A stretch of 64,000 nucleotides of DNA from Bifidobacterium mizhiense. GTDB lineage: Bacteria; Actinomycetota; Actinomycetes; Actinomycetales; Bifidobacteriaceae. Below, piece after piece: positions 24,464 to 55,670 of the stretch. The notes under the pieces are model-generated. The model searched no databases, was not told where the DNA came from, and saw only the letters and a list, made by a program, of their open reading frames with translations. The position numbers and the translations under genes were made by a program. The DNA lies in assembly GCF_020884755.1 (NCBI RefSeq), contig NZ_BPWE01000004.1, positions 62,001 through 126,000 of the forward strand. Direction: 5' to 3'. Position 1 is the first letter of the stretch. Each line of letters starts with the position of its first letter.

Positions 24464-25819
24464 TCATTTCTGCTCTTCGTTCTCATCCCAAAGTAATTTA
24501 TATCCACCTCGCATGTGATCCCATTCCGCACGACTCTTTAAAGTATCTTTATCAATCCCAAGGTTGAGTGCTATCCAACATCTGAAGGTGAGAACTGCTT
24601 TTTGCCAGGAATTGAGACACACTATTTTGTCAGGTCTCTTCCTATTTGCGTGTTTTATCCCGTTATAGGCCGAGGTAGTTTGCAATATCCAGTTGTTAAC
24701 TTCAAAGGGAAGGATATCTTTTAGATTTTCAGTTATTCGTTTTAATCTGTCTTTGAAACTAAACTTATTGGCATCTTTTTTGTTCTTGCCATCGGCTTTC
24801 AGCAAATAATATCCCAAAGCCTCCAGGCCAGAACCAGCTTCTAATAACCTAACTTCAGGCGTGGCTTTGTCTAGTGTAAATGAAGTTACGATTGGGTCAA
24901 TCGCTCGTGGTATCTGATCGTACAATGAAAGCCATTTCTGTACACCGTCTTCTTTCAACTCTGCATATTGAATCAAGCCTCGATCATATTTTGGTTTATG
25001 GCGTTCCTGAATCCCCTCGGTTATTGGCAGCCACTCATTAGCAATTTCTTCGTTTGCAGTAGCTGCAGTATCGGGTGAACGAAGGACTTGTGATTCAGTT
25101 AAATCGCGATCTTCTCCATACGAAATGCGAAGCAAATCCTGTATTGCTTTAGACAAGTGCCTCGCACTTTGCCAAGAGAGAAGGTGAGATGATCTGGTCT
25201 CTATATATGTCTTGTCGTTTATTGTACAGGTGTCATCTTTAGAAGAATAAGAAAGTGACCAATCAAAATGAATATATCCGAGAGGATTGTATTGAAGACG
25301 TATGTCGTCAGGACTTCTAATGATAAGTGTCTCGGACCTGTTTCGAGAATCTCTGTTTGATAGTCTTTTTCTTTCGATATTACTGTTTCCAATCCACTGC
25401 CTCAAACCGGAGATTGAAGTCCGCAACCCATATATTTTTTGATAATTTGTATGTAACCTTGCCCCCATTACGGCGCAATCAGCAATTATTGTCCCCCTGG
25501 CTCCGCCGTTTCCACCTATTACTTGAGTCATACTGTATTTGCGGCAATTTAATAAAGCGATACTACCGTCAATATCGTAAAACCACAGATTTCTAGGCAC
25601 TGGATATATGTCTTGGATCTCAGCTATATCCGCTATATTGATCCCGTCATCAGTCCATAAGTTAGAAATAGCATCTACATTATTCCACGATATAGTTATC
25701 TCTATGCCATCTTCAGTGATGCGTATTGGCACTTGCATCTCGGGGAATAGATAATCGTCGCTGACGAGAGTTCCCACTCTAATCATCTCTGGTGAAAGAA
25801 CATTGCTATTATGAGCCAT
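24464..25819 (-). CDS. ApeA/HEPN-like protein, candidate phage defence
   Basis: A 451-residue soluble protein, AT-rich with poor codon fit to its surroundings. The N-terminal half resembles the ApeA N-terminal domain 1: the layout of beta strands to about 115, GARGTIIADCAVMGARLH, then SISGLRQWIG at 136-144. The C-terminal third is helical and HEPN-like: LEAGSGLEALGYYLL at 326-340, FKDRLKRI at 355-362, and YNGIKHANR at 385-393, where a HEPN nuclease would have RN(x)3-4H. The His and Asn are there but the Arg is missing. ApeA proteins are single-gene anti-phage factors thought to cleave RNA. I do not see a partner gene. Assignment is by pattern only; a decayed or non-catalytic member is possible. 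Confidence 0.6.
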   Translation of the reverse strand: MAHNSNVLSPEMIRVGTLVSDDYLFPEMQVPIRITEDGIEITISWNNVDAISNLWTDDGINIADIAEIQDIYPVPRNLWFYDIDGSIALLNCRKYSMTQVIGGNGGARGTIIADCAVMGARLHTNYQKIYGLRTSISGLRQWIGNSNIERKRLSNRDSRNRSETLIIRSPDDIRLQYNPLGYIHFDWSLSYSSKDDTCTINDKTYIETRSSHLLSWQSARHLSKAIQDLLRISYGEDRDLTESQVLRSPDTAATANEEIANEWLPITEGIQERHKPKYDRGLIQYAELKEDGVQKWLSLYDQIPRAIDPIVTSFTLDKATPEVRLLEAGSGLEALGYYLLKADGKNKKDANKFSFKDRLKRITENLKDILPFEVNNWILQTTSAYNGIKHANRKRPDKIVCLNSWQKAVLTFRCWIALNLGIDKDTLKSRAEWDHMRGGYKLLWDENEEQK

Positions 25820-51048: not shown

Positions 51049-54000
51049 TTACTCGTGCGAAGCGTGAACCAGTCGGCGTGTTTCCTGCCGGTGGCGGCGT
51101 GAGGCCAGGACCCCGCCCATGCTTACAGTCCCGGTGATGAGGGCGAGCAGGATGCCTTCCCCGCCGGCACGTGGGAGCACGCCTGCAGGCAGGTACGTGT
51201 ATCGGAGAGAAGTGTCGGGCGTTTGGGGTGTGCCGCCCAGCGTGTAGTCCACGCTGACGGTGACCGTGCCCGGCTGGTGTGCGGGCGTGATCACGCTGAC
51301 GCTGTTGCCGTCGCCGCGCGTCAGGCCTGGTACGGGGGTCTGGTCGAACCTGACGCCGGTGATCACCAGAGCCAGGTTGAACGACACCGGCACAGGAACA
51401 GGGCTCTGGGCTTTACTGTTATATTGCCCTGTGGGGATGCTGTCGTTGCCGAGCTGGCCATACTGGTTCCATCCCCATGCCCAGGCGTTGCCGTCGCTGC
51501 CCACGGCCAGCGAATAATGGTAGCCGGCGCTGACCTGTGCGGCTTGCAGTCCTTTGCTCTTGTCGGTGGGGCTGGCGGGGTCGCGCACGCGCTTAGGAAC
51601 AGGATTCGTGTCACTGGTCCCGCTGGCGGTGTTGTTGCCGAGGTTGCCGTACCAGTTGCATCCCCATGCCCAGGCGTATCCGTCGCTGCCTATGGCTAGG
51701 GAATGATCGGTTCCGGCGATGACCTGCAGGTAGGTGAAGTCTGCTGGCAGGTCCGGGTACGTGTTGCGGTCGGGCGTCTTCACCCTGACCGGCGTATTCC
51801 GGCTGCTGCTTGTCCCGTTGCCGAGCTGGCCATTGTAGTTGTATCCCCATGCCCAGGCGTTGCCGTCGCTGCCTACGGCCAGGGAATGATCGCCTCCGGC
51901 GCTGACCTGCAGGTAGGTGAAGTCCGCTGGCAGGTCCGGGTACGTCTTCCGGTCGGGCGTCTTCACCCTGACCGGCACAGATTGGCTGTAGCCGGTTGTC
52001 CCGTCGCCGAGCCGGCCATTGCCGTTGTATCCCCAGGCGTAGGCGTTGCCGTCGCTGCCCAGGGCCAGCGAATGCTCGGCTCCGGCGCTCACCTGTGTGG
52101 CTTTTAGTCCCTTGCTTGAATCGTTGGGGCTGGCAGGATCACGCACGAGCATAGGAGCGGTCGAATTTCTTGCGATGTTGTCGCCGAGCTGGCCATCGTT
52201 GTTGTATCCCCAGGCGTAGGCGTATCCGTCGCTGCCTACGGCCAGTGAATGACTGCCTCCGGCGCTGACTTGTATGGCTTTCAGTCCTTTGCTTGCATCA
52301 TCGCGACTGGCGGGGTCGCGCACGCGCACAGGAACAGACGAATACAAATTGTTGCCACTGGTGTTATTGCCAAGTCGGCCGTATCTGTTTAATCCCCAGG
52401 CGTACACGTATCCGTCGCTGCCTAGGGCTAGTGAATGCTCGTCTCCGGCGCTGACCTGCACGTAGGTGAAATCCGCGGGCACGTCCGGATACGTCTTGGT
52501 GTCAGGTTTCCTGATCATGACCGGCGCATGCTTGTCGTCTGTCGTCCCGTCGCCGAGCTGGCCATAGTTGTTGCGTCCCCAGGCGTAGGCGTTCCCGTCG
52601 CTGCCCACCGCCAAGGAAAAACCAGAGGAGGTAATACCGTCGTATGTTGATGCGCTGATCTGGTTGAATCGTATGCCCCGGCTGGCGCTGTCGGGCGGGG
52701 TGATGGTGGCGGGTTCCCTGCCCAGCTGGCTGCCCTTATTAGGGCTGATGCTCCACCTGCTGTTCCGGCTTGCCGGCGTCCAGTGGGCGGCCAGGGTCAG
52801 GTCCTTGTCGACGGGCCTGCTGAAATCGTAGGCGACATCCCCGGTGAACCATCCGTCGAACAGGAAGCCCTCCCGAACCGGGTCGGGGGAGGGCCGCTTC
52901 GCCCTCCCGTACGGGGAGGGGACAGTCTGGTCTGCTGGTTTGGGGTTTCCGCCTCCCGTGTCGAAGCGGACCGTGAACGTGGATCCTGGCTCCGCAGCCC
53001 GTGCCGGCGGCTGGTCGACCGTGTACCTGAGGCTCCTGGCGAAAGGCTGCCCGTCCTGCCTGCCCGTGATGAGGATAGCGGCCGGCCCCGGCTTGCGGGT
53101 GGGCATGTCCGCCTGCCAGGCATCGTTGCTCCTGCTGAGCGTCAATGCCTGGCCGTCCATGCTGGCTGATTCCAGGATGGGCGCTGTGGCGGAGTTGAGT
53201 CTGGCTGGCTTGCCGGGCTGGCTTTGCCCGTCCAGGCTCCACGCGAGCATGCCGCCCTGTCTGCTGACGGCGGCGATCCTGTTGCCGGCGCTTGCGGCCT
53301 GCACGTAGGCTTGGTTCCCGTCGTCCGCGCGGATGGGGGTCTTGCCGGGCTTCCAGGCCCAGACAAGACCCTTGGTATCAACCAATGTTGCTTGTGAAGC
53401 GTCACTGCTTATTGCCGCGATGGCAGAATGGTCGGGCACAAATAGCAATTCTGGCTGGGTTTGTCCGTTGTCCAGATAACTGGTCTGGCCGGCTGAGTCC
53501 AGAAGCACAAAACCATGATCCGTGGCTGATATCTGAACAATTCGGTGAGCAATCTTGACGAGTTGGATCTGAGCGGTATCAACGGCACCCGGCTTCCAAG
53601 CCCAGATTTTGCCCTTGCTGTCCATGGCGAGCAGGCGATCAGCATTGCCAGCCACCGTGATTGCTGTGGCCTGCTTGGGCAGACTTATGGCCTTTCCTGT
53701 CAGCTCCCCCTTGCTGGTCCATGTGCGTATACGGCCATCCTGATTCACTGCTACGAGGTGGTCGGCAGCCATGGCAATGCTGGTGTACGTCGTGGAATCT
53801 GCGTCAAGCAAGGCAGGCGTATCCCCACCTTTGCTCCAGGTGTAGATGCGGTGGTCCCTGCTCAAGGCCGCAAAGCCGTTATGGCCAACTATTCCAGTCA
53901 TGAATCGCACGTCACCGGGTTCGCCCTGAGGCGATGGCACCTGAACAGGCATTTCAGCGTTTGTTGTCCAGATGTACAGGCGGCCATCGCCGGTCACGCC

Positions 54001-54670
54001 GATCAGCTTGTCGTCATGGGCTTCCAATGCGCTGAACGATGGTGAGTCCGCACTCTGGGGTGTGATGGTGATGCTGGTGCCGCCGGAAGCCGGACCATGG
54101 TCGGGGCTGAGCGCCCAATCAGTCACCGGGGCCCACTTGGCCTTCAAGGTGATGTCCCTGGTGATCGGAGTGCGGAAATCCATCATTGCGTCATGCTCGG
54201 ACCAGCCGTCGAACCGGTAGCCGTCGCGCTTCGGATTATCGGCAGGAGGCGACGCCAGGGAGCCATCCGGCACAGTTACACGTTCCGCTTTGCTTCCATC
54301 GGCAGGGTCGAACACCACAGTATGAGAATCAGCAGCAGACTGGGTCCCAGTAGGTGAATAAGAGCTGGATGGAGAGATTCCAAGGGATTGGGAAGAACCT
54401 GTCGGGGTTTGAACAGGGGAAGAAGAAACAGATGATGTCGTCAGCGGCGACGGGGAAGGCAGACTGGTCGGTTGTAGATCGCTCAGGGAACCGTTATCTA
54501 CCTGAGCGGTATAACGACCCCCCCCCCCCGTTGACATCTGAGCCGGAGGCGAAGACGGTGCCGGTGGCCATGCCGGTCAGCAGCAGGGGGATCAGCACCA
54601 ATGCTGACATGAGCGACCGCAGGCCAAACCTATGCGTACGAGAATCGGCAGACGTCGACGACGAAACCAC
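51049..54670 (-). CDS. Phase-variable cell-surface protein, two RCC1-like propellers, InlB-type B-repeats
   Basis: One gene in two frames. Part one starts at the GTG at 54670, six bases after GGGGAGG; it encodes a signal peptide (hydrophobic LMSALVLIPLLLTGMATG, cleavage after VFA) and runs into a 12-G tract (coding strand; 54518-54529). Part two, in the next frame, runs to the stop at 51049. Its order is: Ser/Thr/Pro linker; B-repeat (DGYRFDGWSEHD); seven divergent blades (e.g. GKIWAWKPG); second B-repeat (EGFLFDGWFTGD); seven RCC1 blades of the form SLAVGSDGNAWAWGYNYNGQ; an Ig-like domain; and LPRAGG, a helix and a basic tail, as in sortase substrates. With 11 or 14 G the frames join (about 1206 residues with 11). 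With 12 G the protein is OFF. Ligand unknown, adhesion likely. Confidence 0.82.
54518..54529 (-). repeat. Poly-G tract (12 G on coding strand), phase-variation switch
   Basis: Twelve C on the plus strand, equal to G12 on the coding strand, directly after the signal-peptide codons of the surface protein gene. A change of one base is enough to join or separate the signal peptide and body. Such homopolymers are prone to slipped-strand replication and to sequencing error. Confidence 0.8.
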
Positions 54671-54794
54671 AACAAACCTCCCCAAAGGATTCAAACGCTT
54701 GGCTGACCCAGTCCCCCGCAACCATGGGCAGCGCATGAGCAAATCCTATCACGGGGCCATATGAGCGTCGAATCCCCCGGCAATTCACCCAGGC

Positions 54795-55670
54795 TCAGCT
54801 GGCCGCCACACCACCTACTGCGGGCAGGGCACCGACCATGAGCATGATGGCCACGAAGATGGCCAGGCCGATCCGGTAGATGACGAATCCCCGGTAGGAG
54901 AAGCGCGAGACGATCTTCAAAAAGGCGATGATGACGATGTATCCCAGCAGGAAGCTGACCACGGTGGCGCAGATGGTGGCCCCCCAGCCGGGGAAGGCGG
55001 CGTCCGCGTTGATGTTTTTCAAGGATTTTACCGTCTCGAGTATGCCGGCGCCGAAGACGGCGGGGATGGCCATGAGGAAGCTGACCCGGGTGGCGGACTC
55101 GCGGGTGTAGCCCAGGGCGCGGCCGAAGGTCATGGTGCCGCCCGAGCGGGAGACCCCGGGGATCAGGGCCAGCATCTGCCCGATGCCGAAGAGCAGGGCG
55201 TCCCGGGCGCTCATCTGGCGGATCTCCTTGTTCTGGCGGCCGTGGCGGTCGAAGTAGTCCAGCAGCAGGCCGAAGACGATCAACACCACCACGGTGATCC
55301 AGAGGTTGCGCAGCTTGGTCTCGATGATCTTCTGGAAGAGCAGGCCAGCCACCACGATGGGCAGGGTTCCCAGAATGATGTACCAGCCCAGGGCCGCATC
55401 ATGGTCCTTGGAGCCCATCCGCTCACGCCAGGAGGAGCCGTCCTTGCCGGCCAGGCAGCGGAACCAGTGGGTCAGTATGCGGGCAATGTCATGCCGGAAG
55501 TAGAGCAGGACCGCCAGCTCGGTGCCGAATTGGATGATGGCTGTGAAGGCCGCGCCCGGGTCCTGGCCCAGCAGGCCGCCCACGATGCGGATATGGGCGC
55601 TGGATGAGACGGGGAAATACTCCGTCAGGGCCTGCACCAGGCCGAACAGAATGGCTTCGAAGAAATTCAT
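54795..55670 (-). CDS. uppP: Undecaprenyl-diphosphate phosphatase UppP
   Basis: A 291-residue integral membrane enzyme of the BacA/UppP family. Both signature loops are present: LTEYFPVSSSAHIRIV near the N terminus and LIPGVSRSGGTMTFGRALG, carrying the catalytic Ser/Arg. About eight hydrophobic segments. It recycles the lipid carrier for peptidoglycan and its overproduction gives bacitracin resistance. It precedes the surface-protein gene on the same strand, about 125 bases apart, but the two are probably independent. Confidence 0.96.
   Translation of the reverse strand: MNFFEAILFGLVQALTEYFPVSSSAHIRIVGGLLGQDPGAAFTAIIQFGTELAVLLYFRHDIARILTHWFRCLAGKDGSSWRERMGSKDHDAALGWYIILGTLPIVVAGLLFQKIIETKLRNLWITVVVLIVFGLLLDYFDRHGRQNKEIRQMSARDALLFGIGQMLALIPGVSRSGGTMTFGRALGYTRESATRVSFLMAIPAVFGAGILETVKSLKNINADAAFPGWGATICATVVSFLLGYIVIIAFLKIVSRFSYRGFVIYRIGLAIFVAIMLMVGALPAVGGVAAS

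Follow-up and report, generated by a model that had tools for sequence, protein, structure and literature searches.

Runs of G probably switch a family of RCC1 surface proteins on and off in a bee gut Bifidobacterium

The Opa proteins of Neisseria form a multigene surface family in which each member is switched by repeats in the sequence coding for its signal peptide. Those repeats are pentamers and the proteins are outer-membrane barrels, whereas the genes described here carry a mononucleotide tract of G, belong to an actinobacterium and are predicted to encode wall-anchored propellers. A switch within Bifidobacterium has been reported by Penno et al. (2022, PMC9187656), who found a G-tract between the signal peptide and the sortase-anchored body of the B. 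breve pili bbr_0113 and bbr_1889. Table 1 of that paper covers B. longum, B. breve, B. dentium, B. pseudocatenulatum and B. bifidum. Tract lengths are reported to vary in a B. breve culture grown from a single colony, and pilus-like structures were seen on strains whose frame had been set but not on the parent. The preliminary description of the locus studied here had called this kind of switch uncommon for Gram-positive gut symbionts; with G-tract pilus switches published for five Bifidobacterium species, it is not new in kind.

The likeness is close. As in the pili of PMC9187656, a sortase-anchored body is cut off by the G-tract from its signal-peptide open reading frame (ORF), loss of one G is in most cases the productive change, and the body lacks start signals of its own. 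The pili differ in that one or two G-tract loci are listed per strain, at the head of an operon that includes a dedicated sortase. We deal here with single RCC1 proteins, 17 of them in this genome, with no sortase beside the gene from which we started, and with bee species that are absent from Table 1.

Bottacini et al. (2012, PMC3447821) and Ellegaard et al. (2015, PMC4449606) have studied the RCC1 proteins of bee bifidobacteria, with 19 in PRL2011 and 7–24 per genome. The proteins are the same as ours, with Flg_new and RCC1 repeats, an LPxTG-like anchor and many copies, mostly in tandem clusters. The main text of PMC4449606 does not contain the words "phase", "homopolymer" or "frameshift", that of PMC3447821 does not contain "homopolymer", "poly-G", "slippage" or "frameshift", and "phase variation" is absent from both. 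PMC10092428, on B. asteroides diversity, has none of the six terms looked for. No paper joining the G-tract switch with the RCC1 family was among the matches listed, in searches of openly available journal articles. Thus, the switch and the family are each already in print, and the extension of the known switch across the whole RCC1 family appears to be undescribed.

The window is a stretch of 64,000 nucleotides (64 kb) of Bifidobacterium mizhiense, and coordinates refer to it unless a contig or a locus is named. The gene under study (the window gene) and its upstream neighbour contain the following features.

54795..55670, minus strand: uppP, undecaprenyl-diphosphatase, the upstream neighbour
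54677..54683, minus strand: GGGGAGG, Shine-Dalgarno-like, 6 nt upstream of GTG 54670
54494..54670, minus strand: signal-peptide ORF with GTG start at 54670, hydrophobic core, Gly from the tract and an early stop
54518..54529, minus strand: homopolymer of 12 G, the proposed switch, read in the sequence
54494..54500, minus strand: stops of both wrong frames right after the tract, TAG at 54498-54500 and TAA at 54494-54496
51049..54516, minus strand: body ORF downstream of the tract, 1155 codons plus stop
52783..52977, minus strand: best Flg_new (Listeria-Bacteroides) repeat (PF09479, E 1.6e-20; TIGR02543)
51388..52476, minus strand: RCC1-like propeller domain, best PF25390 stretch (E 1e-148)
51052..51177, minus strand: LPRAG sortase-type signal, hydrophobic stretch and Arg-rich tail, read in the sequence

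The tract is exactly 12 G long. As the preliminary description had stated, the signal-peptide frame that starts at GTG 54670 enters the 12 G and, as assembled, ends at TAA 54494-54496; the other wrong frame ends at TAG 54498-54500. Its frame arithmetic was also right for the body, whose frame has no stop between 54516 and 51052 and passes through the tract in a phase other than that of the signal peptide. The length of the repeat thus decides the frame in which the gene is read, as in contingency genes. The body consists, in order, of a Ser/Pro/Thr-rich linker, Flg_new repeats (2 stretches), RCC1 repeats (7 stretches of PF00415) and the anchor, and the solved structures that it matched by sequence include the propellers of UVR8, RCC1 and HERC. 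It combines RCC1 with Flg_new as the bee RCC1 surface proteins do, and its LPRAG would be a variant of their C-terminal LPxTG-type signal.

The GGGGAGG site was found by a strict pattern in 6 of the 8 copies of this locus (window included), with close variants in the remaining 2, and the signal peptide also recurs in the orthologues. No sigma-70-like promoter was found in a scan of 54400-54950. An internal start of the body at ATG 54535-54537, in the body frame just 5' of the tract, was considered and rejected, no ribosome-site-like sequence being visible upstream of it. When the body frame is read from the last stop upstream of the tract, 10 of the genome's 17 tract-bearing genes offer no Met codon (ATG only) before the tract.

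Shuffling of the window gave an expected 0.04 runs of 12 G, and at least one such run was obtained in 3 of 100 shuffles. Only one G-run of at least 8 was observed, against a mean of 6.34 in shuffles, so that shorter runs are depleted and the 12-G run is long. Elsewhere in the window, GC content per 2 kb is 0.42-0.58 at positions 1-26000 and 0.59-0.68 beyond. Nine proteins of this low-GC part were scanned, with two histidine kinases, an ABC ATPase, a weak FtsX match and an MFS transporter among the matches, and an ApeA/HEPN-type protein lies there at 24467-25819.

The preliminary description treated a single gene. Its reading as a phase-variable antigen is supported; however, the gene is one of 17 of this structure in the genome. 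The assembly has 2.09 Mb in 13 contigs and contains 30 G-runs of at least 8, with lengths of 9 (5 runs), 10 (2), 11 (1), 12 (15), 13 (1), 14 (2) and 15 (4). Seventeen of the 30 lie at the junction of signal peptide and body in RCC1 surface genes, and in all 17 genes the tract is placed between these two parts. The junction tract has 12 G in 15 genes, 11 in one and 15 in one, and in the assembly signal peptide and body are out of frame in every one of them. Many of these genes form tandem arrays with a spacing of about 4 kb on contigs C1, C2 and C3; contig C4 has no RCC1 gene besides the window gene. The 3' flank of the tract reads TCGTCAGACCCCTC(G/A)(C/T)GTAGCT in 16 of the 17 genes, though the preceding signal peptides differ; the flank in the window gene is related to this motif but different.

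Another 8 RCC1 genes of the genome have no tract. Seven were examined, and each has what looks by eye like a signal peptide, in the same frame as the body. One of these 7 (C2, about 48.3-51.8 kb; L008:8311-11820) has a mid-gene frameshift. All 17 tract-bearing genes end in LPxAG, and 5 of the 7 examined tract-less genes end in LPLTG; the two classes perhaps use different sortases. Two sortase matches were found in the genome, at C6:62.6-63.0 kb and C2:174.2-174.5 kb. Neither adjoins the window gene, which lies at C4:113-117 kb and thus has no dedicated sortase beside it of the kind found in pilus operons.

We then compared the junction among relatives, in a genus sample of one genome per species. 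With a motif pattern that allowed one mismatch and misses more divergent flanks, 76 motif-flanked junction tracts were found in 11 of the 27 genomes (own genome included; 10 of the 26 others). The 60 tracts in the ten other genomes were fetched, and 74 of the 76 overall could be scored; the exceptions were L059, at a contig end, and L096, with a short open frame, which is in frame by phase. Among the 74, 18 are in frame, 48 and 8 are in the two wrong phases, and lengths range from 11 to 17. A length of 12 G is found in 46, a dominance that suggests more uniformity than free drift would give. The flanks of in-frame alleles are the same as those of out-of-frame alleles, and tract lengths vary while the flanks stay. 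Both wrong frames stop at most 15 codons past the tract in 73 of the 74 scored motif tracts and in 7 of 7 tracts at the window gene's own locus; thus, an out-of-frame allele makes a short peptide only.

Orthologues of the window gene were picked by using adjacency to uppP as the synteny marker. Tract-bearing copies adjoin uppP in six other genomes, so that with the window there are 7, with tract lengths of 10-12; 2 are in frame and 5, including that of the window, are out. In B. mellis Bin7N, 97% identical over a 1.2-kb query, the copy is in frame as one ORF of 1165 codons from signal peptide to body, and the copy in the single-contig assembly G019 is also in frame. In B. apousia (G004), the assembly breaks at the locus. 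Among close relatives, both phases occur together with the length polymorphism, as in contingency genes. The preliminary description had proposed that an interrupted tract in close relatives would speak against switching. Two of the 9 copies of the locus do have an interrupted tract: that of B. asteroides ESL0199 (G008), with 84% identity over the 1.2-kb query and a longest G-run of 5, and that of G007, with 85% and 3. In both, however, the junction is fixed in frame, which supports the view that signal peptide and body are one gene.

Selection on the body was estimated from 8 copies of the locus. All 28 pairs, those of two out-of-frame alleles included, had a dN/dS of 0.25-0.54 (up to 400 codons). 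The body is thus under purifying selection, also between out-of-frame alleles, and these values fit alleles that spend only some of their time out of frame. With the polymorphism and the natural in-frame alleles, this supports the ON/OFF reading given in the preliminary description.

In-frame tracts make up 20 of the 64 scored outside the own genome and 0 of the 17 within it (hypergeometric P 0.004; paralogues are not fully independent). The in-frame share differs between genomes (permutation p 0.017, with the same dependence among paralogues). The all-OFF state of the own genome may reflect a bias to OFF or a real default-off state, an effect of culture or of selection in culture, or, in whole or in part, a systematic miscall. 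Among the out-of-frame junction tracts, 52 are in one wrong phase and 9 in the other, and we make no statistical claim on this excess because shared descent makes the counts non-independent. The commoner wrong phase is one G above the in-frame length at both positions of the tract, after the signal peptide and, as described below, inside it.

The repair background was also investigated. MutS was found in none of 9 genomes (the own genome, six of the genus and two of the order), while the same search was positive in 11 of 14 controls. NucS was found in all 9 and in 7 of the 14 controls. NucS repair has been reported in a review to be unable to correct indels (PMC8228993). With no MutS match and a NucS presumably blind to indels, long G-tracts in this organism would be prone to slippage.

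The best explanation of these results is, very probably, slippage phase variation of a multigene surface repertoire. The window gene would encode an RCC1-propeller surface protein, anchored in the wall, whose export is set by the length of the G-tract. Slippage of DNA polymerase would lengthen or shorten the tract by a single G or a few. Only one of the three phases would join signal peptide and body, giving a protein that is exported and anchored by sortase; in the other two, translation would end soon past the tract. We infer slippage within a clone, export and anchoring, and also that the loci are independent: each of the 17 could in principle switch by itself, so that a population could carry many combinations of surface proteins. 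The G-runs can thus probably switch each protein on and off, and the coat may vary from cell to cell. As to its use, adhesion, or escape from phages or the host in the bee hindgut, is our guess. Weighing against this explanation are the all-OFF state of the own genome, the dominance of 12 G, the two copies with an interrupted tract and the negative promoter scan.

Other explanations would remove the switch or make it less important. If the assembly had added one G to tracts that are truly in frame, there would be no switch. Such a miscall would produce what the own genome shows, 12 G in 15 of its 17 tracts and not one tract in frame, and Penno et al. warn that G-tract lengths in databases can differ from the true ones (PMC9187656). 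However, other assemblies give 11 to 17 G at the same junction, the single-contig assemblies G007 and G019 among them. These two together have 17 scored motif tracts, of which 9 are in frame (3 of 6 in G007 and 6 of 11 in G019) with the same flanks, and the G019 copy of the window gene is in frame too; we therefore regard a general miscall as quite improbable. Decay of the body into a pseudogene that lost its signal peptide by frameshift is the least credible of all and can almost be dismissed. The window gene is indeed out of frame in the assembly, and the tract-less paralogue on C2 is broken by another frameshift, but decay would hardly leave 1155 codons without a stop under the purifying selection found here. 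Nor would it account for relatives whose copies are in frame, two of them with a fixed junction, or for 17 genes that all lose the frame at one and the same place.

A bypass during expression deserves more weight, although we consider it unlikely. By slippage of RNA polymerase or by ribosomal frameshifting, every cell would make a little of each protein and the DNA length would matter less. The large excess of one wrong phase looks as if a fixed state were kept, as such a bypass would have it. The usual ribosomal shift on a G-run is −1, however, and the commoner wrong phase would require +1. In addition, in-frame alleles are a substantial share outside the own genome, and in B. breve the pilus-like structures were seen in the frame-set strains and not in the parent (PMC9187656).

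A second position of the tract, inside the signal peptide, was found in genomes G001, G002, G021 and G026. In G002, G10 or G11 stands between the end of the hydrophobic core and a stretch resembling a cleavage site (judged by eye). In G001 and G002, stretches in the neighbourhood of RCC1 genes or tracts were selected and 21 runs were taken from them; 2 were left unscored as not at a signal peptide, and of the 19 scored, 5 are in frame and 14 out. A pattern for this position had 36 matches in G002 and 25 in G021, with matches in 8 of the 27 genomes overall, and the reversed pattern, used as control, gave 0 or 1 match per genome and strand. Inspection of 20 loci from this pattern gave 14 with a signal-peptide-like context, 2 of which overlap the G001 and G002 stretches already counted, and 6 without. 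At one of the 14, L147 in G021, the tract fronts a leucine-rich-repeat-like protein (by eye), so that the switch may extend beyond RCC1 proteins.

From the two positions a wider picture can be drawn, which we offer tentatively and which may well prove too bold. Each cell of a bee bifidobacterium might possess a default-off switchboard of independent G-tract loci, from about 17 to several dozen in number and as a rule one G off the in-frame length, in a lineage without MutS. A clone would then constantly shed cells that display one or a few propeller proteins, differing from cell to cell. Two positions would be used for the switch, after the signal peptide in the B. asteroides group and inside it in, for example, G002 and G021.

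If slippage phase variation is true, the honey-bee gut community includes a bacterium whose surface varies combinatorially, and the unexplained RCC1 expansion in bee bifidobacteria would have a testable reason. It would also provide a Gram-positive symbiont model for the forces that favour phase variation when the host lacks adaptive immunity, with phages, hindgut niches and insect innate defences as candidates. One reference genome could then misstate the surface proteins made by a strain.

Some long G-runs of the own genome lie outside the RCC1 genes. A sugar-binding lipoprotein (L014:6847-8040, minus strand; C3, about 192.8-194.0 kb) has 15 G just after a lipobox-like Cys, in frame. Its best NCBIfam matches, ChvE and XylF, are both under the curated cut-offs, and its tract is another candidate switch, on sugar uptake. 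The other runs of 13-15 G (L004:4008-4020, L011:3475-3488, L015:3653-3666, L016:2075-2089 and L017:3324-3338) are apparently mostly intergenic, as judged from mechanical ORFs only, and are possible promoter-spacing switches.

Across the genus, the five members without RCC1 matches (G005, G016, G017, G023 and G024) have 6-10 G-runs of at least 10. In genomes with RCC1 matches and no junction motif, the number of such runs is 0 in G009 (3 RCC1 matches), 12-18 in G013, G014 and G015 (26 to 45 matches), 69 in G002 and 98 in G026. G018 has 65 runs and 9 RCC1 matches; G026, G018 and G002 reach these numbers in genomes of about 2 Mb. The number of G-runs thus does not simply follow that of RCC1 genes, which alone do not explain them, and in G018 something other than RCC1 genes carries the runs.
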